Origin: a virus
DNA: 24,794 bases
Strand: one strand, 5' to 3'
IMG/VR virus record: IMGVR_UViG_3300027396_000086
Span: 1-24,794 of that record
Each line of letters starts with the position of its first letter. The stretch's first letter is position 1. Both the position numbers and the translations under genes were made by a program. The notes beneath the pieces are model-generated. The model saw nothing but the letters and a program-made list of their open reading frames with translations. It made no database searches and was not told the DNA's origin. Shown piece by piece: positions 761 to 21,703 of this stretch.

Positions 761-834
761 TGGTGCGCCAGACAGGAATCGAACCTGCTATCGAGAGTTT
801 AGAAGTCTCTGCCTATCCATTGAGCTTCTAGCGC
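761..834 (-). tRNA. tRNA-Arg (anticodon TCT most likely)
   Basis: On the minus strand GCGCTAG (834-828) pairs with CTGGCGC over all 7 positions, followed by discriminator A and an encoded CCA (763-761). The T arm is GCAGG-TTCGATT-CCTGT and the D loop contains AATGGAT. The anticodon loop CTTCTAA is the classic tRNA-Arg(UCU) loop, as in E. coli and T4. The anticodon stem has one mismatch next to the loop whichever way it is folded, and position 8 is A rather than the usual U. A one-base-shifted fold (loop TTCTAAA) would give anticodon CUA, an amber suppressor; I prefer Arg because several genes here end in TAG. The 5' end overlaps the upstream CDS by 7 bases. Confidence 0.85.
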
Positions 835-9843: not shown

Positions 9844-10203
9844 TTAAAGGCCTTTGTCAATCATTTTAGGCGCAGCTTGCGCAGCGATTTTATTGACTTC
9901 TTCTTTAGATTTATCTACTTGACTCTGTGATGGGTTCTGGTCTTGGCCTACGCCAGGAACATTTAATTCTATACCATCTGCATTGAAGTTATAGACTAGT
10001 TTTTGTAAGACAGGGCTCATGTCATACATCTGCTTAAAAGCATCGTAATCTAGTTGTCCCTGATTGGTATTTTTTAATAGAGTGTTTATGCTTGCCCAGT
10101 TGAACTTAGCAGGAGCCTTTTTGCTTTGAGCACGTCCCACTAGGTTTTTTAATAATAGGACGAACTCATCATCGCCTTCAACTTGGAATTCATAAAATCT
10201 CAT
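9844..10203 (-). CDS. Unknown protein with MRFYEF leader (119 aa)
   Basis: No recognised domain. The first nine residues, MRFYEFQVE followed by G, resemble the leaders on neighbouring proteins, although the P3 residue before the Glu is Q rather than L or I. The middle (residues 12-75) is probably helical with aromatic positions; the C-terminal 40 residues are Q/S/K rich (DQNPSQSQVDKSKEE). ATG 10203 overlaps the upstream stop by ATGA, so it is coupled to the 141-aa and 695-aa genes. It may be a minor internal or head-associated protein; this rests on leader and context only. Confidence 0.7.
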   Translation of the reverse strand: MRFYEFQVEGDDEFVLLLKNLVGRAQSKKAPAKFNWASINTLLKNTNQGQLDYDAFKQMYDMSPVLQKLVYNFNADGIELNVPGVGQDQNPSQSQVDKSKEEVNKIAAQAAPKMIDKGL

Positions 10204-10625
10204 TTTACGCCTGCTGTTTGTTTTAATGCTGCTAAAGATTTTTCTATGTTTTGTATATAAGACTGTAAATCTTGTTGCTGTTTGGCTGCGGCCTGTATGG
10301 CCTGTTGATCTGCCTGCTGCTGTTGTTGCTGTCCTGCCGTAGTGTTGGCACCGGTCTGTGCTGCGGTCGCTGTAGTATCTGATGATCCTCCGCCAGTTGC
10401 TACAGTGGCTACATTCTTTGCTACATTTCCGACTGCTCGTCCACCTTTAACTGCTAGACTTCCTAGTGCCTGCGCACCTTTCACAGCACCCTGACCGACT
10501 TTTACAGCACCTTGGCCTATCGCCGATGCGCCTCTGGCCAAAGCCCCACCTACAGCGGCAAGAGCTGGAAGGAATTCATCCAGCTTCTCTTTTTCTGAAA
10601 CAGGGGCAAATTCGTCGAATCTCAT
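10200..10625 (-). CDS. Ala/Gly-rich low-complexity protein with MRFDEF leader (141 aa)
   Basis: The protein begins MRFDEFAPVSEKEKLDEF. Residues 19-75 are an Ala/Gly/Val-rich repeat-like run (ALARGASAIGQGAVKVG, then QGAVKGAQALGSLAVKGG) with a Lys or Arg about every 7-11 residues, which would form a small-residue amphipathic helix. Residues 75-115 are G/T/Q rich with a polyglutamine-type stretch, and the end is a short charged helix (QSYIQNIEKSLAALKQ). No enzyme motif is present. The same kind of module follows a DEF motif in the 695-aa protein encoded just upstream, suggesting a shared role such as membrane interaction. Overlaps both neighbours by ATGA. Function unknown. Confidence 0.75.
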   Translation of the reverse strand: MRFDEFAPVSEKEKLDEFLPALAAVGGALARGASAIGQGAVKVGQGAVKGAQALGSLAVKGGRAVGNVAKNVATVATGGGSSDTTATAAQTGANTTAGQQQQQQADQQAIQAAAKQQQDLQSYIQNIEKSLAALKQTAGVK

Positions 10626-12709
10626 CCGGCTAATACTTTGAGTAAACGATTTTGTTGTTCTATGCTTTCTCTTTTAGCACGGCCTGCTTCTTCAGCGCCG
10701 CCGGCTGCTGGTTCAGCTGCTGCGAAATCATCTGCTGGAGCTTCTGCGTCTGCGGCCATGTCTGCGCCTGCGTCTGCTGGCGGAGCAAGGTCATCGATGC
10801 TACCTGTATCAGCAGCCATATCGCCTTCTGGTTCAGCACCGATCATGTCTGCGGGGGCACCTTCACCTGATAGTGAACGCACACCGTTGGCCATAGTTTC
10901 TCTCGTTGCTTTTAGATTTTGTAAAGCCTGTTGGATAGCAGGTGCTACTTGGCTTAAGAAAGCCTTGGCTTCTTGCTGTCCGAACTCGTCACGGATATCA
11001 TCTCCTAGACTGAGCAATTGATCGTTTTCCATGCCGGATAGTTCTTCAATCCAACGTGTAATTCTGTCCACCATTGACTTTGCCGTAACGATCGCACTGG
11101 CTTTATCTGTGGCGCTTTCTCTAACTTGATTCATGTTATCTCCTGTTTCAGTTGATTCGCTTTTGTTTTTATGCTTCCATGCTGTGGCATAGGCAATGGA
11201 TCTTTCTTTATCAGTTAGCTCGCCATCCTTGGCATAGCCTTTCTTGATATGTTTGACCATACGTTCGTACTTATCACCCGGAGGTGCCTTCTCCATTTGA
11301 ATGCTTTCTGTTGCTGCTTCACCTGTACGAGACACTTCCCACTTCTTACCAGTCTGTTCAGATTTTTTGCGGCACATGTCTTGTAATCTACGAAGTTGGG
11401 CCATTTCTCTGTTGTCATCGGCATAGGTTCCTTGACCTTGGAATACTTTCCATTTCTTGCCATTGATGTAGATAGCAAAATTGTTTGGCGGTTCTGTGTT
11501 GCCTTCGTCCCAATCATCTTCTCGATTTCTGCGGCTAAAAGACCAATTGCGATCGTAACTGCCGCCACCGCCAAAGTATCCAGCTTCTGTTTCTACACTT
11601 TCATCTTGGCCATAATCACCGTAGTCTTCGTCGGAACCGAAACCCGCTGATGCTAGGGCATATCCATCATCTGTTTCGCCGCCTTCGTCTGGATATGTGT
11701 CGGGCTCGGGAGGAACCAAAGCTTCAAAATCTGCTGCTAGGTCTTGAAGATAATCATCCATGTAACGGATTTCGCCGCCGTCTTTATCGGCATATGAATA
11801 AGATACTTCCTCTACCGCAGCTTCTACTTCTCCCTGTTGTAACAATTTAATAACTTTATCATAATTTGGATCACCGTATCCGCCGATCTCGTTCATATTT
11901 TGATCGAACCGTCTTAGAATTTGCGTAACTTCACTTCTTAAAGAATCACCGCCTTCATCTTCCGACATGTTCAATGCGGGCTTGCCCTGTGGCTGTTTTT
12001 CAGCAGTAGTAAATTGATCCCAAAGTTTCTTTCCACCCCATGCTAACACGATCACCAGCCCAATTGGCAGAGCATATGTAGCTGCTAATGTACCTAGAGC
12101 AGCTAGGTCTGTAGTTGCCACCATCGCTGCTATACTAGGAGCATATTTCTTAATAGCTTGTATATATTCGTCAGCATCTTTGAATACTTCATGGACATCG
12201 CCTAGGTCTTTGACCAACGGTTCAACATGATCCCATGCTTGATACATGATATCAGCTAATGCCAGTTTATGAGCATTCTTTGCTGCTATCTCAGCACCAC
12301 CTTTAACAGCAGCACCTGCTGCTGGTGCTGCCGCACGTGCACCGGCTGCTGCTCCTCTTCCTACTGTACCAAACATTCTAGCTAGATGAGGTAATGCTGC
12401 TACTGCGCCTCTGGCCAGCAACCCCCAAAATTCGTCTACTCTTTGTGTGCTTTCATCTATCCTGCTGGCAATTTCTTTATTGATAGTGTCCAGCATCCAT
12501 TGTGTCTTAGTAAATGTTTCGTTGTTTACAGTTTCGTTGAAATTGGCTTTTTGCTTGTAAGTATAGATCTGGGTCCTTAGCTTGTTGCGAGCATCTTCTA
12601 GCTGCGGTAAAGTATAGGATTCTAAATCCAGTTTTTGACCAAAGGTTTTAGACAAAGTCTCATTGAGCTTTTTAGCGTCAACCCTGTCAAATAAATCATT
12701 TGTTTTCAT
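10622..12709 (-). CDS. Large multidomain protein, putative internal virion protein (695 aa)
   Basis: No single named family. Residues 1-90 are helical, starting MKTNDLFDRVDAKKLNE. Residues 92-145 are an A/G/R-rich run (LLARGAVAALPHLARMF...). Residues about 190-225 hold a strong hydrophobic segment (YALPIGLVIVLAWGGKKLW), a likely membrane or membrane-penetrating helix. Next come an acidic stretch, a small domain (FAIYINGKKWKVFQGQG) seen in other phage proteins, a basic element (KYERMVKHIKKGYAKDG, then IAYATAWKHKNK) common in T4-like phages, a helical region and an Asp/Ala/Pro-rich acidic tail. Late-promoter-like AATAAATA lies upstream. A head-internal, membrane-active protein is my inference; a scaffold-like role is the main alternative. 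Confidence 0.8.
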   Translation of the reverse strand: MKTNDLFDRVDAKKLNETLSKTFGQKLDLESYTLPQLEDARNKLRTQIYTYKQKANFNETVNNETFTKTQWMLDTINKEIASRIDESTQRVDEFWGLLARGAVAALPHLARMFGTVGRGAAAGARAAAPAAGAAVKGGAEIAAKNAHKLALADIMYQAWDHVEPLVKDLGDVHEVFKDADEYIQAIKKYAPSIAAMVATTDLAALGTLAATYALPIGLVIVLAWGGKKLWDQFTTAEKQPQGKPALNMSEDEGGDSLRSEVTQILRRFDQNMNEIGGYGDPNYDKVIKLLQQGEVEAAVEEVSYSYADKDGGEIRYMDDYLQDLAADFEALVPPEPDTYPDEGGETDDGYALASAGFGSDEDYGDYGQDESVETEAGYFGGGGSYDRNWSFSRRNREDDWDEGNTEPPNNFAIYINGKKWKVFQGQGTYADDNREMAQLRRLQDMCRKKSEQTGKKWEVSRTGEAATESIQMEKAPPGDKYERMVKHIKKGYAKDGELTDKERSIAYATAWKHKNKSESTETGDNMNQVRESATDKASAIVTAKSMVDRITRWIEELSGMENDQLLSLGDDIRDEFGQQEAKAFLSQVAPAIQQALQNLKATRETMANGVRSLSGEGAPADMIGAEPEGDMAADTGSIDDLAPPADAGADMAADAEAPADDFAAAEPAAGGAEEAGRAKRESIEQQNRLLKVLAG

Positions 12710-12735
12710 ATGAGCACATCCGGTGGTTTGTAGTA

Positions 12736-12743
12736 TATTTATT
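12736..12743 (-). promoter_or_regulatory. Late-promoter-like AATAAATA before the 695-aa gene
   Basis: Minus-strand AATAAATATAC lies in the 36-base gap between the 144-aa gene and ATG 12709, 26 bases before the start. It would begin the 12.7-9.8 kb coupled transcript. Confidence 0.5.
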
Positions 12744-12745
12744 AC

Positions 12746-13180
12746 TTAAAGAGCCAAACGGTTAGCTTCGCGTTTGTAGTATTCTGCTGCGTCTTTGGCG
12801 AAAATCAACCTGGCTAGATAAAGATCTATCTTGAATTGATCCTGTTCTTTGTGTGCTTTTGACAGCTTGTCTTTGAACATCTTGTAATCTACTAGACTCT
12901 GCCCAAATTTAAGATCCATAGAAATCAACTCGTTTATTTTAGTATCCTGTCCAAAATTTAACAGATTGGCCACTTTGACTGCCACACGATTTAAACTGAT
13001 ATCCTTGAATACCAGAGTATCACCTTTGTAAATGTCTTTAAGGCAGTCGTTGCTGACTATGGTATATCTACCGATTTCAATACCACGTTCTGTTTTTTTA
13101 GGTATTAGAGTCTGCTTGTCCAGCAGCTGCCTGTGGACATTACTGACGACCAGATCTAGATTCTGCTGTGCTTTACTCAT
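12746..13180 (-). CDS. Conserved unknown protein (144 aa) starting on a terminator U tract
   Basis: No named domain recognised. The 144-aa protein is charged and mixed alpha/beta: an N-terminal helix (AQQNLDLVVSNVHRQLL), a beta segment (IEIGRYTIVSND, then TLVFKDISLNRVAVKV) and two charged C-terminal helices (MFKDKLSKAHKEQDQF, then DAAEYYKREANRL). ATG 13180 follows directly on the T7 tract of the hairpin at 13181-13203, so the only Shine-Dalgarno-like AGG is buried in the stem. No other plausible start is seen nearby. Its place among small late genes suggests a structural or assembly role, unproven. Confidence 0.75.
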   Translation of the reverse strand: MSKAQQNLDLVVSNVHRQLLDKQTLIPKKTERGIEIGRYTIVSNDCLKDIYKGDTLVFKDISLNRVAVKVANLLNFGQDTKINELISMDLKFGQSLVDYKMFKDKLSKAHKEQDQFKIDLYLARLIFAKDAAEYYKREANRLAL

Positions 13181-13203
13181 AAAAAAAGGACCTACGGTCC
13201 TTT
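13181..13203 (-). terminator. Rho-independent terminator touching a start codon
   Basis: AAAGGACC (13185-13192) pairs with GGTCCTTT (13196-13203) around a 3-base loop. On the minus strand it is followed by seven T and then directly by the ATG at 13180. It would end the transcript of the 132-aa gene, whose stop is 18 bases upstream. Its U tract forms the leader of the next gene. Confidence 0.85.
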
Positions 13204-13221
13204 ATTTAATATCTGGGTATA

Positions 13222-13620
13222 TTATAAACCCACGAACTTGATTATCTTTGCGAGATCCATGTGTCCTAACCATCCAGCACCTGCTAGGAAAGCCAACAAC
13301 ACCATAAAATACATAGTACCTTTATTTTTAAATTTTTCTAGTTCCGATATCTTGCCAGCTAGCTCGTGATGTTGTGCTGTCTGTTCTTGGTGTAATTTGT
13401 CTGCGTGTGCGTAGTAAAGATCTCTATTTTTTTCATAGCTAGAGTTCATTATTTCTAGCTTGTCCATGATGCTGTCACGAGTACGATCTAGGCAGTCGTG
13501 CATGTCCTTGACGTCTTCTTTTAATTCGCAGATCTTGACGTCTATATTATCTACTTTTGTTTCTAGTACACTTACTCGTTCCGTCGTAGACGGTCTAAGT
13601 GCTGTAGCTGCTCTTGCCAT
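13222..13620 (-). CDS. Coiled-coil protein with C-terminal membrane anchor (132 aa)
   Basis: The frame opens at 13632, but ATG 13620 (protein MARAATALRPSTTERV) has GGAGAG at ideal distance, so I use it. After about 14 residues comes a long coiled coil with heptad spacing (VSVLETKVDNIDVKI to about residue 105, mostly charged), then a hydrophobic segment at about residues 108-127 (MYFMVLLAFLAGAGWLGH) and a short tail. This is a tail-anchored topology with a large cytoplasmic coiled coil. Lysis regulators and phage membrane-tethering proteins can look like this, but there is no spanin lipobox or signal peptide, so a lysis role is speculative. A terminator follows directly. Confidence 0.75.
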   Translation of the reverse strand: MARAATALRPSTTERVSVLETKVDNIDVKICELKEDVKDMHDCLDRTRDSIMDKLEIMNSSYEKNRDLYYAHADKLHQEQTAQHHELAGKISELEKFKNKGTMYFMVLLAFLAGAGWLGHMDLAKIIKFVGL

Positions 13621-13654
13621 TAGGCTCTCCATTCAAATACCAATTAAAAACAAT

Positions 13655-13667
13655 GCTCGCTCCGAGC
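13655..13667 (-). other. Short hairpin with GAG loop in 5' leader
   Basis: GCTCG-GAG-CGAGC on the minus strand, 5-bp stem, 35 bases before ATG 13620. It is followed after three bases by TGTTTTTAA, so it could also terminate the 135-aa gene upstream. The CGGAGCG apex is the same as in the hairpin at 14602-14618. Confidence 0.5.
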
Positions 13668-13714
13668 CGATGCCTTAATGTGTTTTATGATAGCCTAACT
13701 TGATGCCTGATATT

Positions 13715-14122
13715 TTATTTATTAGGATTTGACAGAATTTCTATTTTGGTGTTTATTTCTGATCCCAAGGTCCTAAATGCGGGTATCTTAAACCCTACAT
13801 CATTATTTAGTTGATCTATTATAGGCACACCGTCTAGATCCTGTTTTAACAGTCCTACTGGATCTTTGTTTGATAAGAATATTTCATCACGATCTACTGT
13901 AAACTCATAGACCCAATGTTTAGCCTTGCCTTCGAAAGGGTCAGGCAGTCTGCCTTCGTTTAAGACGGGATCTCTATCGGAGAATATTATGGCCCTCAGT
14001 CCTATGGCCTGTATAAGACTGTTGAAATTGGCCTGTTGGCTTTGCCTAACGTGATCGGTGTCTGATCTCGTTGGTCTTGATCTTGTGATGTCCACTAGGG
14101 TGGTAACTCTATAGCTTTCCAT
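13715..14122 (-). CDS. Conserved phage protein of unknown function (135 aa)
   Basis: The N-terminal pattern (YRVTTLVDITRSRP, then QSQQANFNSLIQAIGLRA) recurs in unnamed proteins of T4-like aquatic phages. The middle contains a beta-rich part (KHWVYEFTVDRDEIF) and the end is strand/turn (TEINTK-like IEILSNPNK). No enzyme motif or membrane segment is visible. It sits between two terminators, with GTAAATA (14133-14139, minus) as a weak late-promoter candidate and no strong ribosome site before ATG 14122. A virion or assembly role is likely from context but not shown. AATAAATA overlaps its stop codon and would serve the next gene. Confidence 0.78.
   Translation of the reverse strand: MESYRVTTLVDITRSRPTRSDTDHVRQSQQANFNSLIQAIGLRAIIFSDRDPVLNEGRLPDPFEGKAKHWVYEFTVDRDEIFLSNKDPVGLLKQDLDGVPIIDQLNNDVGFKIPAFRTLGSEINTKIEILSNPNK
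13716..13723 (-). promoter_or_regulatory. Late-promoter-like AATAAATAA
   Basis: Minus-strand AATAAATAA overlaps the TAA stop of the 135-aa gene and lies about 95 bases upstream of ATG 13620. The long leader includes the hairpin at 13655-13667. Confidence 0.4.
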
Positions 14123-14145
14123 AATCTGCTATTATTTACGTCAAT

Positions 14146-14171
14146 AAAAAAGGGCGGAAAAATTTCCGCCC
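14146..14171 (-). terminator. Strong rho-independent terminator
   Basis: GGGCGGAAA (14152-14160) pairs with TTTCCGCCC (14163-14171); the innermost pairs probably open to make a workable loop. On the minus strand six T follow. It closes the 126-aa gene, 27 bases after its stop. Confidence 0.93.
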
Positions 14172-14198
14172 TCAATTCCCATCCCTAGGAATTATTGA

Positions 14199-14579
14199 TT
14201 ACTTGTTAGCTACGAAAGTTGCTTCAACAGTAACGGTTGCGCCTGTGCCTGCTGCTGCGTCAGTAGTGTCAAATGTACCTGTACCTTGTACAGCGAAGTA
14301 AACAACATCGGTTACGCCGCTTTCGAAAGCCGAACCGTTTGCTGTACCAAAACCTGCTACTGTGAACGCATCACCTGTGTCAGCTGGTAGAGTACCACCT
14401 GAACCACCTGATTGGGTGATAGCAGCGTAGATGCTACGTAGGTTTGCGGTTGTCATGTTGGTCAATGCGACCTTAACGATCAATGTGCGACCGTTTAGAC
14501 CATTTGCGATTTGAAATAGATTGTAGTTAGCACTGACTGTTGCGTCTGGTGCTGGAACGTTGGTATATGTCCATGCCAT
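14199..14579 (-). CDS. Small beta-rich virion-type protein (126 aa), monocistronic
   Basis: A G/T/A-rich, cysteine-free, beta-strand protein (MAWTYTNVPAPDATVSANY; DAFTVAGFGTANGSAFESG; a final strand TVTVEATFVANK). It looks like a small capsid-decoration or other abundant surface protein rather than an enzyme; I do not recognise a named family. The gene is set up for high, independent expression: late-promoter-like AATAAATA at 14627-14634, a 7-bp hairpin in the leader, ribosome site AAGGAGA 8 bases before the ATG and a strong terminator just after the stop. Codon use is cleaner than in the neighbours, with fewer rare-looking Arg codons, consistent with high expression. Confidence 0.82.
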   Translation of the reverse strand: MAWTYTNVPAPDATVSANYNLFQIANGLNGRTLIVKVALTNMTTANLRSIYAAITQSGGSGGTLPADTGDAFTVAGFGTANGSAFESGVTDVVYFAVQGTGTFDTTDAAAGTGATVTVEATFVANK

Positions 14580-14601
14580 GATAAGTTCTCCTTAAATGTA
14601 T

Positions 14602-14618
14602 AGTCCCGCTCCGGGACT
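14602..14618 (-). other. 5' leader hairpin of the 126-aa gene
   Basis: AGTCCCG-GAG-CGGGACT on the minus strand, a 7-bp perfect stem. It would stand near the 5' end of a transcript starting from 14627-14634. No U tract follows, so mRNA protection is more likely than termination. Confidence 0.65.
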
Positions 14619-14626
14619 GGCATGTT

Positions 14627-14634
14627 TATTTATT
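14627..14634 (-). promoter_or_regulatory. Late-promoter-like AATAAATAA before the 126-aa gene
   Basis: Minus-strand AATAAATAA lies in the 78-base intergenic region, 48 bases before ATG 14579 and about 9 bases before the leader hairpin. Confidence 0.55.
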
Positions 14635-14657
14635 CGTTTTGGAAAAAACCGTGAGGA

Positions 14658-15890
14658 TCAGCGTGGTTTTGCGCGGTTTGCTTGGGTAAAGTGTAATCTA
14701 GGCACTAGTTTGATACTGCTACCGCTCTTGACATAACCTTCGCCGCCCTGTTTACCTGCTATGCTAGAACGCACTTCTGCTCTAGCATCTAGCTGTGATA
14801 TGATATCGTCTTTTACAGCCATGATCTGTTCTAGTGTACTGAATATGGCAGCGAACGAATTGGCATGTGTTTTACGATACTGCTGTATCTTGGCCTGTTT
14901 AGGCGCACTGACTTTACTGCTGGTTAGCCAGCTGTCAAACTTAGTATTAAGATTGGTAAGATCACCAGTATCTACCTGTTGGTTTACAAAAGTATACAGT
15001 ATATTCTTTAGGTCGCTGAGTTTTTCTGCTGCTAGTCTCTGATCATCTAGGAGAGAATCGATGTCATTGGCATGTTTGGCCACGAACTGTTTGACTCGCT
15101 GTATGCTCTTGTCATCTACTGTGGGCATATGATTGACAGTTACTGGACCCTGGATCATAACAGGACCTTGTTCCTTGATGCCTTTGATAGGTCCAGTCAA
15201 TGGCTGGCTGTTACCTTCAAGGTCTGTATAACTGTGTACCACTATACCAGCTGTGCTTTGTGTGATACGTTGTCCTATGCTGCTGTTAGTATCTATATGA
15301 TAGCTAACAGTGTTAGGAGTAAATGTATAATCACCGTTCTTGTCCACAGGCGGACGAGCATAATATAATAGATCGCCTTTGATATAACCTCTAAAGCTAG
15401 GTTCTATCATGCTTTCTAGTCTAGGCCAAAGACTTTTCATACTACCTGCGAATTCTCTACGGCTGGCTTCCTTTTCTGGATCCTGCTTGCCTCTGCTCAA
15501 CAACATAGTTTCTAGATCGCCTGCGCTGGTAACACGACCATTGTAACCCTTGGCAGTGAATCCGCTGTTGTCTGTTAACACGAACTGTCCTTGTTCGTTG
15601 CGTCCAAAGAACACAGCAGGACTGCCGTCCCATTTGACAGTGACATCGTCTACGCTCTTGGCCATGCTGGCTAATTCGTCTATGGCTTCTAATGCGCCTT
15701 TGCTCCCATCGACAATGACTAGGTCTTCTGCGTGTTGTAATGCTCTGCCAACTTTAGGAGTAGCAGCTTCGTTAGTTTTCTTGCGACCAGCACAATGCGC
15801 CTTCTGGCTAAACCCTTTGGGATTAGAACAGTTGATCGAGCGTTTGTATTTCTCGCTCCATTTCTCGTTTATGACTTCTCTTATTCTCAT
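14658..15890 (-). CDS. Ligase-like nucleotidyltransferase-fold protein with CTS-like leader (410 aa)
   Basis: The frame is open to 15920, but ATG 15890 gives an ATGA junction and an N-terminus MRIREVINE typical of this locus, so I use it. Residues 21-37 are NCSNPKGFSQKAHCAGRK-like, a motif seen in other T4-like proteins. K86-W-D88-G89 (VTVKWDGSPAVFFGR) matches motif I (KxDG) of the ligase/capping-enzyme superfamily; GYIKGDLLYY (168-177), GIVVHSY (215-221), EGYVKS (384-389) and IKLVPR (393-398) fit motifs III to V. A helical insert separates the last motifs. It may adenylylate itself on K86 and join or cap nucleic acid; that is inference. Motif I lacks the usual Arg after KxDGx. Confidence 0.8.
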   Translation of the reverse strand: MRIREVINEKWSEKYKRSINCSNPKGFSQKAHCAGRKKTNEAATPKVGRALQHAEDLVIVDGSKGALEAIDELASMAKSVDDVTVKWDGSPAVFFGRNEQGQFVLTDNSGFTAKGYNGRVTSAGDLETMLLSRGKQDPEKEASRREFAGSMKSLWPRLESMIEPSFRGYIKGDLLYYARPPVDKNGDYTFTPNTVSYHIDTNSSIGQRITQSTAGIVVHSYTDLEGNSQPLTGPIKGIKEQGPVMIQGPVTVNHMPTVDDKSIQRVKQFVAKHANDIDSLLDDQRLAAEKLSDLKNILYTFVNQQVDTGDLTNLNTKFDSWLTSSKVSAPKQAKIQQYRKTHANSFAAIFSTLEQIMAVKDDIISQLDARAEVRSSIAGKQGGEGYVKSGSSIKLVPRLHFTQANRAKPR

Positions 15891-16675
15891 CTTACTAGGT
15901 CTATGATCTTTCTCATCCAACTAGGACTGTTTGGTGTGTAGTGTTCTAGAGCTTCTTTCTTTGGCAGTTCTATTCCTGAACGACCTAGAGTTTCTTGTGC
16001 CGCAGCAATGAGCTCTTCATAGTTGGGCAGCTTCTTGATATAGTTAGTTATGCTTTCTACTGATCTAATATCTTTGACCGTAGCTGTCTGTCCTAACAGT
16101 TTCTTGGCTATCACATTCCAGTCATCGCCGTTAGCGATAGGTTCTTTAGTCTCTGGATCTACTAGACCAAACTTAGGACTATACTTTAGTCCTCTAGCCC
16201 GAGCGATGCTAGATAGCAGTATATGTCTATGTTCACCACGATAAGCATCCGACCCGCCCAACATACTGCCTTGTTGGAATTTAGGATTGGTGCTAAACAT
16301 AAAATCTGTTTGAGCAAACCCATTAGCAGGGTCACCTAATACGGCTGTTTTTAAGTGTACATTGTCGCCGCTGAGTTTTACACTTTCTTTGCCAAACTTG
16401 GCGATCAATTGCTGTGCGAATTCTTTTTTGTCTATTTGGTTAGCATCAACGCTGAGATCTAGGTCTCCGCTATCTGCTTTGCGTCCTGTAGTACCTAACC
16501 ATTTAATAGGCACACCTGCTTCGTCTTTGTCTAATGTGAAATCTAATCCGGTAATCCGTTCTAGATAAGCGATAGTTCCGGGGATTTCATCCTTGGTTAT
16601 TCTGCGTGTCAGTGGCTGTTTGTCAGCACCCTTGAATACATTTCCACCTTCTAATAGATCAATCATTACTCTCAT
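15887..16675 (-). CDS. Pol-beta-type nucleotidyltransferase with CTS-like leader (262 aa)
   Basis: Residues 58-77 (IKWLGTTGRKADSGDLDLSV) show the signature of the DNA polymerase beta nucleotidyltransferase superfamily: a G-T/S helix start followed by D71-x-D73, with a third metal-binding Asp at D124 (AQTDFMFS). The C-terminal half is helical. It should transfer a nucleotide to RNA, DNA, protein or a small molecule; the acceptor is unknown. The leader MRVMIDLLE-G fits the (L/I)xE pattern. ATG 16675 overlaps the upstream gene by 17 bases; ATG 16666 (residue 4) is an alternative. The stop is coupled by ATGA to the ligase-like gene, suggesting the two work together. Confidence 0.85.
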   Translation of the reverse strand: MRVMIDLLEGGNVFKGADKQPLTRRITKDEIPGTIAYLERITGLDFTLDKDEAGVPIKWLGTTGRKADSGDLDLSVDANQIDKKEFAQQLIAKFGKESVKLSGDNVHLKTAVLGDPANGFAQTDFMFSTNPKFQQGSMLGGSDAYRGEHRHILLSSIARARGLKYSPKFGLVDPETKEPIANGDDWNVIAKKLLGQTATVKDIRSVESITNYIKKLPNYEELIAAAQETLGRSGIELPKKEALEHYTPNSPSWMRKIIDLVR

Positions 16676-16940
16676 CCAATTTCTTCTTTTGTTTTCTAGA
16701 CTCAGCTATCTTGCGTATTCCGCGAGTAAATTTAGCAGGGTCTTTGCCTTTGATAGCATTGAGCAATCGTCTTTCGAGCTCGTCGGCCATCTCGGGATCG
16801 TAGTGCTTATTCAAAGATTCTATAAGATTTATAGCACTGTTGATTATGTTGGTAGCCCTGCTTTCCATAAGGGCGTCCGTGTTTCTTACACTGGCTACTT
16901 GATTGAGTTCTTGTAAAATCGATCTTGTGCTTAGTTTCAT
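16659..16940 (-). CDS. Small helical basic protein with CTS-like leader (93 aa)
   Basis: The frame is open to 17015, but ATG 16940 has AGGAAGG at 8 bases and yields MKLSTRSILQE, so the longer start is rejected. The protein is all helix by eye: a leader, a helix with RATNIINSAINLIESLN, then MADELERRLLNAIKGK and a Lys/Arg-rich end (IRKIAESRKQKKK). No named family is recognised. It is the first gene of a coupled trio with the nucleotidyltransferase and the ligase-like protein; being small and basic it might bind nucleic acid for them. Its leader ends in LQE followed by L. Confidence 0.72.
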   Translation of the reverse strand: MKLSTRSILQELNQVASVRNTDALMESRATNIINSAINLIESLNKHYDPEMADELERRLLNAIKGKDPAKFTRGIRKIAESRKQKKKLDESND

Positions 16941-16992
16941 TTTATGCCTTCCTGACAGTATATTTAACACGATTTTTCGGAAACAACAAGTA

Positions 16993-17021
16993 TTGATTTT
17001 TTGTGCGACGCACACTAAAAT
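16993..17021 (+). promoter_or_regulatory. Sigma70-type promoter for the plus-strand island
   Basis: TTGATT (16993-16998), a 17-base spacer and TAAAAT (17016-17021), with transcription expected to start near 17028. It is the only good host-type promoter in front of the small genes starting at 17077 and points away from the minus-strand gene at 16940. Confidence 0.65.
17002..17014. promoter_or_regulatory. Palindromic operator-like site between -35 and -10
   Basis: TGTGCG-A-CGCACA is a perfect 13-base palindrome lying wholly in the spacer of the promoter at 16993-17021. The position suits a dimeric repressor or activator. No binding protein is identified. Confidence 0.5.
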
Positions 17022-17034
17022 ACTAAATAGTCAG

Positions 17035-17053
17035 TAGAAACCATGAGTTTCTA
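17035..17053 (+). other. 5' leader hairpin
   Basis: TAGAAAC (17035-17041) pairs with GTTTCTA (17047-17053) around a 5-base loop, close to the predicted transcript start and 24 bases before the first ATG. It is probably an mRNA-stabilising stem. Confidence 0.5.
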
Positions 17054-17076
17054 ACACACTTACACAGGAGATAGTA

Positions 17077-17268
17077 ATGAAGCAATTATCTGAAAAGATG
17101 CTTGGCATCTTAGAACGTCTAGCAGAGATGTTCCCCAAACAAAACTACCAATCCGAACTGGATAGGTACGTATCATCAAAATATCCCACTTCCGTAGCTG
17201 ATGTAGAACATTGGACTCGCGAGTTTGATAAGCAGCAATCGACCTATTCATGGAGGGCAACACAATGA
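17077..17268 (+). CDS. Small early-type protein (63 aa)
   Basis: The first gene of the plus-strand island, with ribosome site CAGGAGAT 6 bases before ATG. The 63-aa protein is helical and charged (KQLSEKMLGILERLAEMF, then NYQSELDRYVSSKYP, and VEHWTREFDKQQS) without a membrane segment or known motif. The SELDRYVSSKxP and VEHWTREFD pattern is reminiscent of small proteins in other phages and bacteria, but I cannot name a function. Its stop overlaps the next start by ATGA. Placement behind a sigma70-type promoter suggests expression before the late genes. Confidence 0.8.
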   Translation: MKQLSEKMLGILERLAEMFPKQNYQSELDRYVSSKYPTSVADVEHWTREFDKQQSTYSWRATQ

Positions 17269-17384
17269 CGTTTATTAAAGCATTTTATAGCTGGCTAGAG
17301 CAAATTGGTAAAGCTAGAGCAGCAGCACATTTCGCACAAAAGGGCGACTACGAATCAGCACTCAAATTGATGACTGGTGACTGA
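17265..17384 (+). CDS. Very small protein (39 aa)
   Basis: A 39-codon gene with ribosome site GGAGGGC at good distance and ATGA overlap with the preceding gene. The protein is MTFIKAFYSWLEQIG, then KARAAAHFAQKGDYESALKLM: a hydrophobic amphipathic N-terminal helix and a TPR-like helix (A-x-x-x-A, GDYESALKL). It may be membrane associated or bind another protein. Small proteins with this ARAAxxxAxxGxYExA pattern are common in T4-like phages. Function unknown. Confidence 0.78.
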   Translation: MTFIKAFYSWLEQIGKARAAAHFAQKGDYESALKLMTGD

Positions 17385-17385
17385 T

Positions 17386-17562
17386 ATGAGATATATTGTT
17401 AAGGCCATCATGTCATTTTTTGATTCTTGTGATCCAGTACAAGAGAAAGAATGGTTACAGCTGGCAAGGACAGAATATCGAAATGACGCGGACTATGCTT
17501 ATCATATGTTGAAATTGGGTAAAGTTCCATATTATGATACCAGCATATTAGGTTATAAATAA
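17386..17562 (+). CDS. Small protein (58 aa)
   Basis: ATG 17386 lies one base after the preceding stop; a GTG at 17377 in the same frame is a less likely start. The protein is MRYIVKAIMSFFDSCD, then EKEWLQLARTEYRNDADYAYHMLKLGK: a hydrophobic N-terminal helix and a charged helical domain. No named family is recognised. Ribosome site is weak, so translation probably depends on coupling. The gene ends at the second promoter of the island, at 17563. Confidence 0.7.
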   Translation: MRYIVKAIMSFFDSCDPVQEKEWLQLARTEYRNDADYAYHMLKLGKVPYYDTSILGYK

Positions 17563-17592
17563 TTGACTTGTTAACAAGCGAGGATATATAAT
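17563..17592 (+). promoter_or_regulatory. Strong sigma70-type promoter
   Basis: TTGACT (17563-17568), an 18-base spacer and a perfect TATAAT (17587-17592). The start would fall near 17599, giving a leader of about 19 bases before ATG 17618. It begins in the stop codon region of the 58-aa gene. Confidence 0.8.
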
Positions 17593-17617
17593 GTACACAT
17601 ACACACAGGAGAGTTTT

Positions 17618-17839
17618 ATGTTTTCACCACAATTTTTCGTCGACACTTTTCAAAACACCAAGAAAGTTGTCGCAGACCAAATTTTCAAAGATCCAGCATT
17701 GAATAAAGCAGCACACGCATACATCGATGCACAGACGCAATTTGCCAAGATGGCTATCAACAATACCATCGACATGGCTAAGTATTCTGTGGATTCCATT
17801 AGCAAACATTGGTTTCCAAAGAAGGAATGGACCGCCTAA
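17618..17839 (+). CDS. Phasin-like small protein (73 aa)
   Basis: The open frame begins at 17591, but ATG 17618 has AGGAGAG 7 bases upstream and lies after the likely transcript start, so it is chosen. The protein is an amphipathic helix bundle type: SPQFFVDTFQNTKKVVADQ, then AAHAYIDAQTQFAKMAI and NNTIDMAKYSVDSISKHW. The pattern (hydrophobic plus Gln/Thr/Lys, AQTQFAKxAxxNTxDMAK) resembles phasins, which coat polyhydroxyalkanoate granules, but it is shorter than bacterial phasins and the call is tentative. A strong host-type promoter drives it. Confidence 0.75.
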   Translation: MFSPQFFVDTFQNTKKVVADQIFKDPALNKAAHAYIDAQTQFAKMAINNTIDMAKYSVDSISKHWFPKKEWTA

Positions 17840-17875
17840 AGGTCTTAGACATACACACACACAAAGGAGAATATT

Positions 17876-18157
17876 ATGTCACAATCAAACGGACTACATG
17901 AAATGATCAAAGCCCCAGAAGTTAAATTTAATAAGAACGGGTATGAAATCCGTACAGACATTCTGGCTATGGCTAAAGACCTTGTTGCTCAAGACTTTCA
18001 AGTCAAGTTTCAAGGTTGGGAAATGACTGCTACTCGTGATGAGAAGACTGGTCAGATCGTTAGCACTGTTAGCATGCCTGAATTCCCAGGGCTCGATAAG
18101 GTACTAGAAACTGCCGAGAAAATGTACGCATTTGTTAACTCAGGCGTGAAGAAGTAA
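17876..18157 (+). CDS. Conserved phage protein of unknown function (93 aa)
   Basis: Ribosome site AAAGGAGA precedes ATG at good distance. The 93-aa protein has the segments KNGYEIRTDILAMAKDLV, FQVKFQGWEMTATRDEKTG and MPEFPGLDKVLETAEKMYAF. This order (EIRTxIL-MAKDxV, GWEMxxxRDEKTGxIV, MPEFPGLDxVLETAxKMYxFV) is a recurrent unnamed family in T4-like aquatic phages. It is mixed alpha/beta with no catalytic motif. It is the last gene of the plus-strand island, cotranscribed with the phasin-like gene from 17563, and its leader repeats the ACACACA-AGGAG pattern of the other two main genes there. Confidence 0.82.
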   Translation: MSQSNGLHEMIKAPEVKFNKNGYEIRTDILAMAKDLVAQDFQVKFQGWEMTATRDEKTGQIVSTVSMPEFPGLDKVLETAEKMYAFVNSGVKK

Positions 18158-18200
18158 TTATTACCGCATAGCGGATTACATATATTTTATTAGTAAACAG

Positions 18201-18222
18201 AAAGGACTCTTCGGAGTCCTTT
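18201..18222. terminator. Bidirectional terminator between convergent transcripts
   Basis: AAAGGACTC-TTCG-GAGTCCTTT, a 9-bp stem with a stable UUCG loop on the plus strand. T-rich sequence follows on the plus side (TCATATTTTT) and weaker T-rich sequence on the minus side. It separates the plus island from the minus-strand gene whose stop (18222-18224) touches the stem. Confidence 0.88.
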
Positions 18223-18842
18223 CATATTTTTCGCATTAGATAAATCGCTTGATTTCTTTTATTTCCTGAAGCATATAACGAAATCGGCAGTTTGGAAGAT
18301 AGCCATTCTGTTAATTGTGTGGGATTAAAGTTTTCCATATCGGCTGTAGAATTTTCTATGCTACCATTATTGATAACAAGATTATCTCCATAAGGTGGAG
18401 TCCAATAACTACGTATGATTTCTAGATTAGCTTCTACAGCATAATCTTTTTCTATGACTAAAAATCGATATGATTGCTGTCCATAGTGTTTCATTACAGC
18501 TACTCTATCTATACCGCCATAATATCGTTGGTCATTTAATCGTATAGCAGGTATAGGATCTCTCCAGCAGCGATCTCTATTCCATATTAATGACAGCTTG
18601 ATAATCTTTTCTAATCTAGTTAGAAAGTTTTTTTCTAATGTAGTCTTTTTAACGCTAGAGACTAGTTGTTTAATTAGGTATCTATTGGTATCAAATATTT
18701 CTAGATCGTTAAACAAATGCCATTTAGACATAATAGCACCAAACACTGGTCCCATAATTTCTATATAATGATCTTCTATATTCCAGAGACCGTCAGTGTA
18801 TAGGTATCCTAAAGGTAATGTTTCATACCTTATAGGCATCAT
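18222..18842 (-). CDS. Unknown protein (206 aa)
   Basis: No named domain recognised. The 206-aa protein has an aromatic N-terminus (PIRYETLPLGYLYTDGLW), helical middle (YLIKQLVSSVKKTTLEK, then LEKIIKLSLIWNRDR) and a beta-rich part (YRFLVIEKDYAVEANLEI). Base composition is more AT-rich than in the surrounding genes, with many AAA/ATA/TTA-type codons, which may mean recent acquisition. It lacks the CTS-like leader found on the next three genes. Ribosome site AAGG is 5 bases before ATG 18842; ATG 18839 is equally possible. It begins one base after the upstream stop, so it belongs to the same transcript. Confidence 0.72.
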   Translation of the reverse strand: MMPIRYETLPLGYLYTDGLWNIEDHYIEIMGPVFGAIMSKWHLFNDLEIFDTNRYLIKQLVSSVKKTTLEKNFLTRLEKIIKLSLIWNRDRCWRDPIPAIRLNDQRYYGGIDRVAVMKHYGQQSYRFLVIEKDYAVEANLEIIRSYWTPPYGDNLVINNGSIENSTADMENFNPTQLTEWLSSKLPISLYASGNKRNQAIYLMRKI

Positions 18843-18843
18843 A

Positions 18844-19959
18844 TTAACCTTGGAATTCTATCTGATAGTCAGCTTCTGTTGTGTTAGGAAAACGTGTGGT
18901 CAGCTTCTGTATGATGTCAGCACGGCTTTCACCATCGATGCGAGCTTGTCTGCCCGATGCTATCTGTGTTACTAGATAAGTGCCAACACCTTCTTGTGGC
19001 TGATCTTCTGGTTCTGGTTCTGCTGCTTTGCTATTCCAGCTTTGTGGAAACTTATTTTGTAAATCAGTTATAGCTTTGTCGATATCATACCCGCCGCGAG
19101 CAATTTCGTTAGAATTAGTCTTGATCTCTTGAGCATTATCTTTCATAGCCTTGGCTATGCGTTGTAGCAGACCCGGGAACAATTCAGCAAATTTTTCATC
19201 ACCTCGACTGTAACTTATGGTTTGATTACCGTTGTTCATTTGATTAGTAGGAGCATGTATTTGCCACTTACCATTAACATCATCTATGTTTGCTTTATCG
19301 ACGATTGAGATCAAAGGACCATCGGGAGCATAGTTGTTGAACCAACGTATACCTGAACTAGAACCTGTACAGAAACTAGCACGGAATCCTGCTGCGTTGT
19401 TAAATGTATAACATGATCCGTAGTTATAAGGAATTACCGCAAAGAATCTATCATCGTCTATAAGAATAGTTTCTTTCTTTTCTTTCTTGTGTTTTTCTAT
19501 GATACCGGCATCTTTGATGCGTTCTAGTTCGTCTCTGTAATGTCTATCTTGTACGATTGCCTGTATCTGACGTAGGTTCTTAAACTTGTTAAAATCTTGA
19601 TGTTCTGGTTTTAGTTTTTTACGCAGACTGAGAGCTTTCCACGCACCTAGAGCATCGCCGCCTTCACCGTCTACATCTTCATAGTCAACTACACCTTTTG
19701 AATACAGTCTGGTCAGCCACTCATCAAACTTGCCATCTGTGGATACATCACCGTAGTCAGTCGCTGACAATGATCTATCTAATAGGTCACTCCATAGTTT
19801 CATTACTTCTTCTGGTTCGGGTTTTGTCCCTAATTTAGCCAAATCGCCTTTGGGGATAGTATGGTCGTGTATCAGGGCCAGATAGACCTGTTTGACCATC
19901 TGTGGATCTTTTATCTTTGCCGCTACGTTGGCTTCTAATATGACTTGATTTAGTTTCAT
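18844..19959 (-). CDS. Unknown protein with CTS-like leader and Cys/Trp-rich core domain (371 aa)
   Basis: The leader is MKLNQVILE followed by A, almost the T4 internal-protein pattern. Residues 15-160 are helical and charged. Residues 165-240 form a distinct beta-rich core: IDDDRFFAVIPYNYGSC, FRASFCTGSSSGIRW, then Y210 and PLISIVDKANI followed by KWQIH. The order ...P-x(4)-GSC...CT...W..Y...G-L-x-I-DK...K-x-x-x-H is shared with a family of unnamed T4-like and other phage proteins that usually show WCT at the second element. The final 100 residues are acidic linker and a small domain. Function is unknown. ATG 19959 overlaps the upstream stop by ATGA. Confidence 0.78.
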   Translation of the reverse strand: MKLNQVILEANVAAKIKDPQMVKQVYLALIHDHTIPKGDLAKLGTKPEPEEVMKLWSDLLDRSLSATDYGDVSTDGKFDEWLTRLYSKGVVDYEDVDGEGGDALGAWKALSLRKKLKPEHQDFNKFKNLRQIQAIVQDRHYRDELERIKDAGIIEKHKKEKKETILIDDDRFFAVIPYNYGSCYTFNNAAGFRASFCTGSSSGIRWFNNYAPDGPLISIVDKANIDDVNGKWQIHAPTNQMNNGNQTISYSRGDEKFAELFPGLLQRIAKAMKDNAQEIKTNSNEIARGGYDIDKAITDLQNKFPQSWNSKAAEPEPEDQPQEGVGTYLVTQIASGRQARIDGESRADIIQKLTTRFPNTTEADYQIEFQG

Positions 19960-20843
19960 CCTGATATCACGACCCTTTTAAAGAAACCTAGGATCGTTCC
20001 TAGCTTTTTCATATCACCATTAGAGATGTCTTTCAATAACATCTTTGGTCCTTCTTCGAACTGAGGCTGTAATTCATCGCCTCGAGCATACTGTGGTCTC
20101 TGTAATGCTCCTGTCTGTTCTGGATAATAATGTGCTGCGGTCATTAGCACAGCGTGATTGATAGTTTTTTTCACGATACCGGGTGCTTCTGTGCCGCCTC
20201 TGCGTATCTCATCTATTTGATTTTCTAATCTTTCTACATAATCTAGTTTTTTCTTAGCTTTACTGAAAGCATCATTTTTGATCATAGTAACAATATGTCC
20301 ACGTAAGCTAACGATAGCAGCTTCCATAGCTTTGACCCACATAGGTCTAAATTTCTCTATGAGATATTCTGTAGTAACATTGCCCAGCCCTCCCTTCTTT
20401 GCCTGAGCTTGATACTCTTTTCTTTTCTTGCGTTTATCAGTGACTGTTGTTGTGTTAGTACCTACATAAAATTTGGTCAGCTTGCCGATCTTGCCTTTGA
20501 TAAAATCGATATTATTGCCGCCGCGGTCATTGTTAAAAGTTTCTGGCTCACCGCCTGCGCTGGCTACAGAATGATAGCTACCCTGTGATGCTTTGATAGC
20601 AGCAACACCTTTGGTTCCTTGTATAACTACCCAAGCACCCCTATAGGCATTCTTTAGTTCGCTCCAGGAAATCTTTTCTACAGGACCGTACTTGATATCG
20701 TGTCCTAATCCTTGTGTTTTGTGTAGATACTGTATAACCTCCTGTCCTCCAGGCTGGTTTTTAACTAGGTCAAGACTTGAACTGACTTCAGCAAGGACGC
20801 CTTCGCATAATTGGGCAAATAAATGGCAAGTTTCTATTCTCAT
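19956..20843 (-). CDS. Unknown protein with CTS-like leader (295 aa)
   Basis: The N-terminus MRIETCHLFAQLCE-G has an LxE site at residue 14 and another (LAE) at 19. The body is mixed: a beta-rich region to about residue 130 (SWSELKNAYRGAWVVIQG, VAAIKASQGSYHSVA), a Lys-rich segment (DKRKKRKEYQAQAKKGG) and a long helical half (WVKAMEAAIVSLRGHIV, AKKKLDYVERLENQI). No named family is recognised. ATG 20843 has no ribosome site and lies 4 bases from an AATAAATA, so a transcript from that promoter would be nearly leaderless. Overlaps the next gene by ATGA. Confidence 0.75.
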   Translation of the reverse strand: MRIETCHLFAQLCEGVLAEVSSSLDLVKNQPGGQEVIQYLHKTQGLGHDIKYGPVEKISWSELKNAYRGAWVVIQGTKGVAAIKASQGSYHSVASAGGEPETFNNDRGGNNIDFIKGKIGKLTKFYVGTNTTTVTDKRKKRKEYQAQAKKGGLGNVTTEYLIEKFRPMWVKAMEAAIVSLRGHIVTMIKNDAFSKAKKKLDYVERLENQIDEIRRGGTEAPGIVKKTINHAVLMTAAHYYPEQTGALQRPQYARGDELQPQFEEGPKMLLKDISNGDMKKLGTILGFFKRVVISG

Positions 20844-20847
20844 AACG

Positions 20848-20855
20848 TATTTATT
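20848..20855 (-). promoter_or_regulatory. Late-promoter-like AATAAATAC abutting a start codon
   Basis: Minus-strand AATAAATAC followed by GTT and ATG 20843. The motif matches the others in this window, but the start of transcription would fall on or next to the ATG. Confidence 0.4.
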
Positions 20856-20866
20856 TCTCTATAGTT

Positions 20867-21703
20867 TTAACGATTAGGTAATCTCGGACGGTCTTGTCCT
20901 AGGGCTCTAGGATTGGCTTCAGCATCTACACTGTCCTGTTCAGGCCAGCTATAAATGTAGTCTCCAAACTCGTCACGCACTAGAAGCCAACGGATTCCTC
21001 CCGCAGAATATTGATGTATTTGTGCTCGATATCCTGGAATAGTTGTATCAAAATCTATATCTCCTGTACCTACATCCTCACCGTTTTCACGAGCCCAGTT
21101 GGCTACAGCATTTACTTCTTGTCTAGTGTTAGGTCCTTGTCCGTTTAGATTGCCAATCATCCATATATCATTAGTATCCGTACGGGTAAAAGATCTAAAG
21201 AGCTGTCGTCCTAATGTACGGATAGCACGTTGCATGTTTCCAGGCAAGTTAGCCACCTGATGAAACTCGGGATTTTCTACTCCTGCGGCCGCTAGATTCC
21301 TTCCTGCTACTGCTGGCAAGTTATCTGTATCCACACGCACTGCTGGCAGATTAGCATCTTCTGGTTCTGGGTAACCGGGATCGTCCGGATCGGCTTCTAT
21401 ATCTCGCATACGACTCAACAGATCTCTCATTCGTTGATTAGGTGCTACATTGCCAGCTGCTCTTTGTGTATCACGCTGTGAAGCTCTGCGTCTAGGATCA
21501 TTAGGTTGATCATTGCCGCGAGGTTGGTCGGGTTCTGGTTCAGGTGCTTTGGCTGGTAGATTATCGTCTGTAGGTTCTTTGAAATCCCAACCCCAATCTA
21601 TGTTAGGTTTTTCTTGAGGTTCAGCCGTTGGACGTGATTCTGGCTCATCGTCTTTTTTCTTTTTGCGATCTTCTTCGTTTAAGTAATCTCTAAATGTTTT
21701 CAT
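20867..21703 (-). CDS. Unknown proline/acid-rich protein with T4-type CTS leader (278 aa)
   Basis: The frame is open to 21721, but ATG 21703 makes an ATGA junction and gives MKTFRDYLNE followed by E, in the same ten-residue register as T4 internal proteins (MKTYQEFIAE). Residues 11-150 are highly charged and proline rich, probably disordered (KKKKDDEPESRPTAE, PEPEPDQPRGNDQP). A folded C-terminal domain from about 150 to 260 contains FRSFTRTDTNDIWMIGNLN, VNAVANWARENGED and GIRWLLVRDEFGDYIY. No named family is recognised. It is coupled to the secreted nuclease gene upstream. A head-packaged protein with a disordered spacer is my inference. Confidence 0.78.
   Translation of the reverse strand: MKTFRDYLNEEDRKKKKDDEPESRPTAEPQEKPNIDWGWDFKEPTDDNLPAKAPEPEPDQPRGNDQPNDPRRRASQRDTQRAAGNVAPNQRMRDLLSRMRDIEADPDDPGYPEPEDANLPAVRVDTDNLPAVAGRNLAAAGVENPEFHQVANLPGNMQRAIRTLGRQLFRSFTRTDTNDIWMIGNLNGQGPNTRQEVNAVANWARENGEDVGTGDIDFDTTIPGYRAQIHQYSAGGIRWLLVRDEFGDYIYSWPEQDSVDAEANPRALGQDRPRLPNR

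Follow-up and report, generated by a model that had tools for sequence, protein, structure and literature searches.

We analysed a stretch of viral DNA of 24,794 bases (virus record IMGVR_UViG_3300027396_000086; hereafter the window), which comes from an uncultivated T4-like phage. Between positions 9844 and 21703 the minus strand of the window encodes nine proteins with leader-like N-termini, named here by start position or by length. We consider it probable that six of them (21703, 20843, 19959, 16675, 15890 and 12709), and probably also 10625, carry T4-type capsid-targeting propeptides, so that they would be cut by gp21, packaged in the head and injected. A sequence-only reading of the window had proposed such leaders for the whole set; they are well supported for the six and likely for the seventh. 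The proposal was not supported for the 119-residue protein (10203) or for cleavage of the 93-residue protein (16940), and both of these fit the capsid-targeting reading poorly.

In the proposed mechanism the tag would bind the prohead core during assembly, and a gp21-type prohead protease would cleave (L/I/V)xE behind its E, where the next residue is often small. Once mature, the proteins would stay with the packaged DNA inside the head and be delivered to the host along with the genome. We infer injection because of the biology of the T4 internal proteins, the classical injected anti-defence proteins. Excerpts of two papers describe IPI as an inhibitor of a type IV restriction enzyme and IPIII as required on one strain of E. 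coli (PMC9391042, PMC9026906).

Two proteins of the window were 100% identical to proteins of the 169-kb IMG/VR contig L007 (G001), an incomplete fragment of the same phage. The related contigs compared were G002 (348.7 kb), G003 (198.7 kb), G004 (161.9 kb) and G005 (138.0 kb). The relatives suggest that the phage of the window is itself a jumbo phage. No phage record was matched by megablast with the whole window or by tblastn with its 371-residue protein.

Constant junctions behind variable leaders

The bare (L/I)xE motif proved too common and non-predictive (see below). Therefore, we examined conservation of the junction among homologues from 123 IMG/VR loci and the five contigs, with genes called by our own script. 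In what follows P3 is the hydrophobic residue of the motif and P1' the residue after E. The 371-residue protein (18844..19959, fold not recognised) begins with the leader MKLNQVILE|A (19959-19933). In its family E was followed by Ala in 37/37 rows reaching the column, P3 was V, L or I, and the leader measured 8-18 residues. The 262-residue protein (15887..16675), which has a Pol-beta-type nucleotidyltransferase signature, carries the leader M(RVM)IDLLE|GG (16675-16649). Among its relatives (best 80 of 285) both E and a P1' Gly were present in 55/55, with L, V or I at P3; leaders were of 6-10 residues in 53/55, and the two of 38-39 residues may be wrong starts.

The Ala-, Glu- and Asp-rich protein of 695 residues (10622..12709) has the leader MKTNDLFDRVDAKKLNE|T (12709-12659); its E was kept in 24/25 relatives and P3 was L or I in 24/24. 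For the 295-residue protein (19956..20843, fold not recognised) there are two candidate cut sites, LCE14|G (20843-20802) and LAE19|V. E14 was found in 30/30 rows, followed by S, G, N or T, and E19 in 31/31, followed by Ala in 27/31. The charged, Pro-rich 278-residue protein (20867..21703) starts with MKTFRDYLNE (21703-21674). Its family has few members, with starts such as MKTFRDYLAE|A and MKTFQDYLAE|A; E10 was present in 4/4 rows reaching it, of 6, and P1' was Ala in 3.

In the 410-residue DUF6267 protein (14658..15890) the leader is MRIREVINE|K (15890-15864), and a Cys module comes next. An alignment-free recount found E9 in 49/50 rows, with a hydrophobic P3 in all 49 and P1' distributed as Ala 22, Lys 12, Asp 7, Asn 5, Glu 2 and Ser 1. 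In the set of 37 sequences aligned for folding all start with MR and have E at residue 9, and the leaders vary (MRAFEFLTE, MRAFEIISE, MRAWELLLE, MRFWEILTE, MRIREVINE). The Cys module (KWSxKYKxSINC...) follows the leader in 13 of these and is absent from 24, with E9 kept in all.

Taken together, a constant or near-constant E with a hydrophobic P3 was observed in six of the nine families (in one of them on 4 rows). The junction is constant while the leader varies. As a control, we took all alignment columns of the window families with at least 95% E and counted those with a hydrophobic P3 and a small P1'. There were 5/9 in the first 20 residues of the set families and 6/101 elsewhere (P=0.0004), a comparison that is not fully independent because the set had been chosen for (L/I)xE. 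One of the six other sites also lies near an N-terminus (136-residue protein at 13222). The control omits families with fewer than 4 rows (that of the 141-residue protein included), and its misaligned DUF6267 columns mix the leader E with a later E. Alignments A1, A2 and A3 used 27/28, 37/39 and 28/38 of the prepared rows, respectively.

The other three families were less uniform. The Ala/Gly-rich 141-residue protein (10200..10625) starts MRFDEFAPVSE and reaches KLDE at residue 17 (10625-10575); it probably has a leader, and the site differs among its relatives. In the 119-residue protein (9844..10203; weak match to ORF136 of Klebsiella phage RaK2, E=0.004) the first six residues are leader-like, and most relatives start MRFFEF, with no conserved cut site. 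Its start MRFYEFQVE had been listed as a weaker match; we count it as a non-match because P3 is Gln rather than L or I and E9 is kept in 1/27 relatives. The 93-residue protein (16659..16940) is a homologue of gp259 of Pseudomonas phage PA5oct and of RaK2 ORF129. Its start MKLSTRSILQE|L contains ILQE|L, found in 46/46 relatives, and the following residues are conserved as well. There is thus no sign of a cut, because E lies inside a conserved block, and the protein is possibly a leader-like, untrimmed core protein.

The 93- and 141-residue proteins resemble small core or filler proteins. This favours a different explanation, in which the leaders mark structural or scaffold components of the virion, docking to the prohead core or the capsid, rather than injected effectors. 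T4 gp67, gp68, gp21, gp22, gp23 and gp24 also have hydrophobic-x-E near the N-terminus, as do head-core families of G002-G004 and PA5oct. Against this, two members of the set are enzyme-like, and bearers of a superoxide dismutase and a sigma region 4 on a relative (described below) would make an odd scaffold. We regard such a structural role as rather unlikely.

Leader frequency in the window, in relatives and in T4

All nine open reading frames (ORFs) were present with the starts claimed for them, and our own gene-calling script chose the same start for 8/9. For 15887-16675 it preferred an ATG three codons downstream (16666, MIDLLE); homologues leave the start undecided, and both possible starts retain LLE|GG. 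We tested 30 window proteins against the rule 'M[KR] plus [LI].E ending at residues 5-20'. It selected 8/30, exactly the eight named in the sequence-only reading, while shuffling of residues 2-41 gave a mean of 0.61 proteins and reached 8 in 0/5000 runs. The genes that had been named as outsiders (nrdA, nrdB, glutaredoxin, PAAR, tailspike, nuclease and those for 206- and 144-residue proteins) do not fit the rule. When compared without their first 15 residues, the nine proteins gave no cross match better than E=0.055 and are therefore mutually unrelated.

The single elements of the rule are frequent. M[KR] starts were found in 58/225 proteins of G001, and [LI].E alone in the first 20 residues in 57/225 on G001, 63/322 on G002 and 42/174 on G004. 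In one region of T4, hydrophobic-x-E occurs in the first 20 residues of 22/55 proteins outside the nine marked as gp21 substrates or internal proteins. At the family level, hydrophobic-x-E present in at least 85% of members was found in 21/119 families at residues 5-20 and in 10 and 16 in the next two windows of residues; with a small P1' added, the counts were 5, 3 and 4. The bare (L/I)xE is thus only mildly enriched among families, and the evidence for leaders is the combination of features with conservation, not the bare rule.

Such frequencies, and the failure of the bare rule to predict virion proteins in PA5oct, agree with the leaders being a by-product of translation starts, where ATG followed by A-rich codons gives MK or MR and LxE is common in helical N-termini. 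The shuffling controls speak against this, as do the constant E|A and E|G junctions despite differing leader lengths, and the differing leaders that precede the same following sequence in the 371-residue and sigma-like families. We therefore hold a by-product to be very improbable.

More such leaders were found elsewhere, as the sequence-only reading had suggested looking for. A T4-like tag motif matched 7, 11, 9, 9 and 6 genes on G001-G005, compared with 1.0, 1.2, 0.7, 0.9 and 0.9 after shuffling. These 42 genes form 25 families, and some must be chance matches. Further, a leader profile built from the four other contigs placed seven members of the set as the seven best of the 30 window proteins; its training set was picked with the same motif and includes orthologues of two of the ranked members.

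In T4, IPII and IPIII begin with MKTYQEFIAE followed by Ala, gp24 with MAKINELLRE and gp22 with MLKEQLIAE, and gp21 cuts after the E of these leaders. The start MKTFRDYLNE in the window is close to MKTYQEFIAE and has the same 10-residue register. As with the T4 capsid-targeting sequence (CTS), a short N-terminal stretch ending in (L/I)xE stands on unrelated proteins, and relatives have a gp21-type protease. The set in the window differs in that most members have a nine-residue register (e.g. MRAFEFLTE), P1' is not always small, the proteins are more numerous and larger, with likely enzymes among them, and their packaging is predicted. According to an excerpt, residues 4 and 7 of the T4 CTS serve targeting and residues 8 and 10 processing (PMC9026906). 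MKTFRDYLNE matches these positions (F4, Y7, L8, E10), and the nine-residue leaders do so only after a one-residue shift.

When applied to 64 T4 proteins, the T4-like motif found IPII and IPIII, missed IPI and also matched vs.6. In this T4 region it found no tail or baseplate protein, which argues against the block encoding tail or baseplate accessory proteins whose leader helix docks to the tail. The tailspike-like and PAAR genes nearby, and the proteins labelled only 'structural' in the PA5oct cluster, point in that direction; we consider a tail function improbable.

Other known systems are similar in part. Excerpts of one paper describe T4 Alt, an injected ADP-ribosyltransferase whose very short leader is cleaved at ITE-6, and ejection proteins of phiKZ and SPN3US. 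The latter include several head proteins, unrelated to one another, from which a prohead protease removes propeptides by cleavage after x-x-E (PMC5694885). Alt is likewise an enzyme with a short leader, but no ADP-ribosyltransferase was recognised here. In phiKZ and SPN3US several propeptides exceed 100 residues, whereas the leaders here are mostly of 6-18 residues, as in T4. The CTS has already been proposed, in an excerpt of a further paper, as a route by which T4-like phages take various proteins into the capsid (PMC9026906). Searches of open-licence literature on capsid-targeting sequences listed work on T4, P1, SPN3US and others, and among the papers listed we found nothing on the present gene set.

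Putative enzymes with leaders

The 262-residue protein had invariant G61, D71, D73 and D124 in 28 sequences. These fit G[ST]...GDhDh with a later hDh, which we take to be the Pol-beta-type nucleotidyltransferase signature. Neither the Pfam nucleotidyltransferase profiles nor the solved chains gave a match to the 28 members at E<=1, and we call the protein a putative nucleotidyltransferase by signature only. Its gene and that of the DUF6267 protein are neighbours with a four-base overlap. The latter protein has KWDG, EGY and KLVPR motifs, with K86 W87 D88 G89, E384 G385 and K394 invariant in 37 sequences. We assume that its KxDG, EG and K motifs are the ligase motifs of the covalent nucleotidyltransferase/nucleic-acid ligase superfamily.

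The model of the DUF6267 protein had a mean predicted local distance difference test score (pLDDT) of 80.5. In VIA, 50/50 of the matches listed were ligases or end-joining complexes, and the matched chain of the latter is presumably DNA ligase IV. The best match had Z 6.9 and a root-mean-square deviation of 4.7 over 171 aligned residues; a Z below 8 is weak by the tool's yardstick, and the best Foldseek E was 0.087. The model points weakly to a ligase-like fold. A gene with a sub-threshold RNA_ligase match (PF09414) is located just upstream of the nucleotidyltransferase in the phages Atu_ph07 and Phosso (E=0.002 and 0.085, respectively). Our best guess is that the nucleotidyltransferase and the DUF6267 protein form a predicted nucleic-acid end-repair pair, which may be available from the first moment of infection. 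The term DUF6267 was not found in a search of open-licence papers. The model of the 371-residue protein (mean pLDDT 84, predicted template modelling score 0.53) had no convincing structural relative (best Foldseek E 0.98; best VIA Z 6.0, for 47 residues in the C-terminal part). Profiles of three families gave no convincing match among solved chains (best E 0.18).

Further leader-bearing proteins were observed on the contigs. On G002 (221434-221988; locus L142, relatives L196-L275) a Fe/Mn superoxide dismutase starts with MRDIIQLLE (family pattern MRDII[QT]LLE). Its Pfam N-domain match begins at residue 18 and is below the cut-off; the C-domain match is strong. Relatives on viral contigs (best 80 of 242) kept the leader, with 36 distinct N-termini, all having the site. 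A sigma-70 region 4 protein of G002 (284983-285936; L145, relatives L276-L355) starts with MRAIELYE, and among its relatives (77 loci) MRAIELYE, MLTEHIIIE, MITEDFVPE and MRAQEFITINE precede much the same sequence. These 77 are from 80 kept of 140; three cut ones were skipped, and an upstream in-frame Met was taken for some. Many of the matches span about 190 codons, and the 317-residue protein of G002 therefore seems to have an insert.

A second group is present at 142.8-149.3 kb of G001. It includes a cytidylyltransferase-like protein that starts MRLKQLWE, and an NT5C-type nucleotidase that starts MRASELK and lacks a site. An NTP-transferase-like protein, on the same phage's contig or its relatives, also bears the tag. 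It had been claimed that only two members have recognisable enzymatic folds. As far as could be judged this is correct within the window, where one member shows a nucleotidyltransferase signature and another weakly a ligase-like fold. It does not extend beyond the window, where the tag occurs on cytidylyltransferase-like, superoxide dismutase, sigma-region-4 and NTP-transferase-like proteins. A 1014-residue protein of G002 (L146:2939-5983, equal to G002 287939-290983) has short conserved Cys modules and many LxE-type linkers; one module is that found after the leader of the window's DUF6267 protein, and another is weakly DUF5872-like, below the cut-off.

Related phages, virion proteins and the proposed cargo

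The order 93-residue protein, nucleotidyltransferase, homologue of the 695-residue protein, exonuclease, nrdA, nrdB is common to the window and PA5oct, and RaK2 has it minus the nucleotidyltransferase. The neighbourhood near gp41, exonuclease and nrdA is shared in whole or in part by PA5oct, Atu_ph07 and RaK2. In PA5oct, gp259-gp245 are syntenic with the block of the window, and 11/15 have notes of detection by electrospray ionisation tandem mass spectrometry (ESI-MS/MS). Among these are gp253 (homologue of protein 16675, E=2e-10) and gp247 (of protein 12709, E=5e-17). PA5oct gp250, a homologue of a leaderless 135-residue window protein (E=5e-7), has a note too, so the virion proteins of this PA5oct block comprise both leader-bearing and leaderless ones. 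The RaK2 block has 'virion structural protein' labels. An excerpt on Atu_ph07 reports 131 virion proteins, 29 of them in the cluster of coding sequences 31-76 in the numbering of the paper (PMC6102473).

The motif N6, M[KR]-[LIVFAT]-x-[DEQ]-hydrophobic, was present in 7/93 PA5oct proteins positive by mass spectrometry and in 0/154 others, and in 7/93 and 3/227 (P=0.008) with 73 further called genes; N6 was shaped after the PA5oct N-termini had been seen, and the 154 were hand-selected. The five best scorers of the leader profile in PA5oct were all positive. A gp21-type protease above the family cut-off was detected on G002, G003 and G004.

Several results weigh against the capsid-targeting reading. 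The search for a gp21-like protease, which had been proposed as a check, succeeded in three of the five contigs but found none on G001, the 169-kb fragment of the phage itself, or on G005. In DUF6267 proteins with the Cys module P1' is mostly Lys, unlike the usual small residue of T4. We read six DUF6267 proteins of cultured marine T4-like phages: a leader is absent from four, and the other two have leader-like starts (HTVC008M MYNDLLVE, Melnitz MINFSKYITE). The nucleotidyltransferases of PA5oct (gp253), Atu_ph07 and Phosso are leaderless, with starts MSGNAF, MGGRAF and MGGAAF. As gp253 is leaderless and nevertheless has a virion note, the leader is not the sole way into the virion.

As predictors of virion proteins in PA5oct, the bare (L/I)xE did not separate positive from negative proteins (17/90 vs 42/152), and 'M[KR] plus hydrophobic-x-E by residue 16' failed as well (7/93 vs 10/154). 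A rank test of the leader profile over 247 PA5oct proteins gave P=0.98. In a held-out stretch of RaK2 the tag motifs matched 0/25 virion-labelled and 0/39 other proteins, and with the already-seen stretch added N6 matched 1/33 and 0/59.

The tag motif is rarer in PA5oct, Atu_ph07 and RaK2 than here; in PA5oct the T4-like motif matched 4 proteins, with 1.35 after shuffling (up to 6), and so without clear excess. Candidate leaders in PA5oct, with the predicted cut after the final E, include MKIKDILVE and MKINDIITE. Atu_ph07 gp062 and gp063 start MRWHQLIE and MRLFQLLE, though the nucleotidyltransferase of this phage lacks a leader. The leaderless nucleotidyltransferases begin about where the cut would fall. 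We read the leaderless relatives as suggesting that the tag is an exchangeable add-on.

Leader genes of the block overlap. The first of them (start 21703) is also overlapped by four bases by the gene at 21700-22521 (minus strand), which encodes a DNA/RNA non-specific endonuclease (PF01223) with a signal-peptide-like start (MKKILTTILLTLVGFTSSYA); G002 has a similar gene with the start MKKIIAIATVLISTNIFA. A few small plus-strand ORFs lie between the minus-strand operons (17077-18157), and one of them (17876-18157) belongs to a family with 46 distinct N-termini across loci. At 761-834 (minus strand) ARAGORN identified a tRNA with anticodon CTA (label Pyl), which would read amber codons. At a long distance from its head block, PA5oct (NC_071039) carries another gene with the annotation head maturation protease (180349-181020).

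In summary, beyond the capsid-targeting propeptides of the window we tentatively propose, with somewhat less than even confidence, that in large T4-like phages a swappable, gp21-cleaved tag some nine residues long serves to load ready-made enzymes, a cargo that is broad and changes fast. This cargo would comprise the nucleotidyltransferase and ligase-like repair pair, a cytidylyltransferase-like enzyme, a superoxide dismutase and a sigma-like factor. If this is true, the tag would allow the injected proteins of uncultivated phages to be listed from sequence alone. If the tag is that widespread, the predicted cargo includes enzymes whose presence inside a phage head would come as a surprise.

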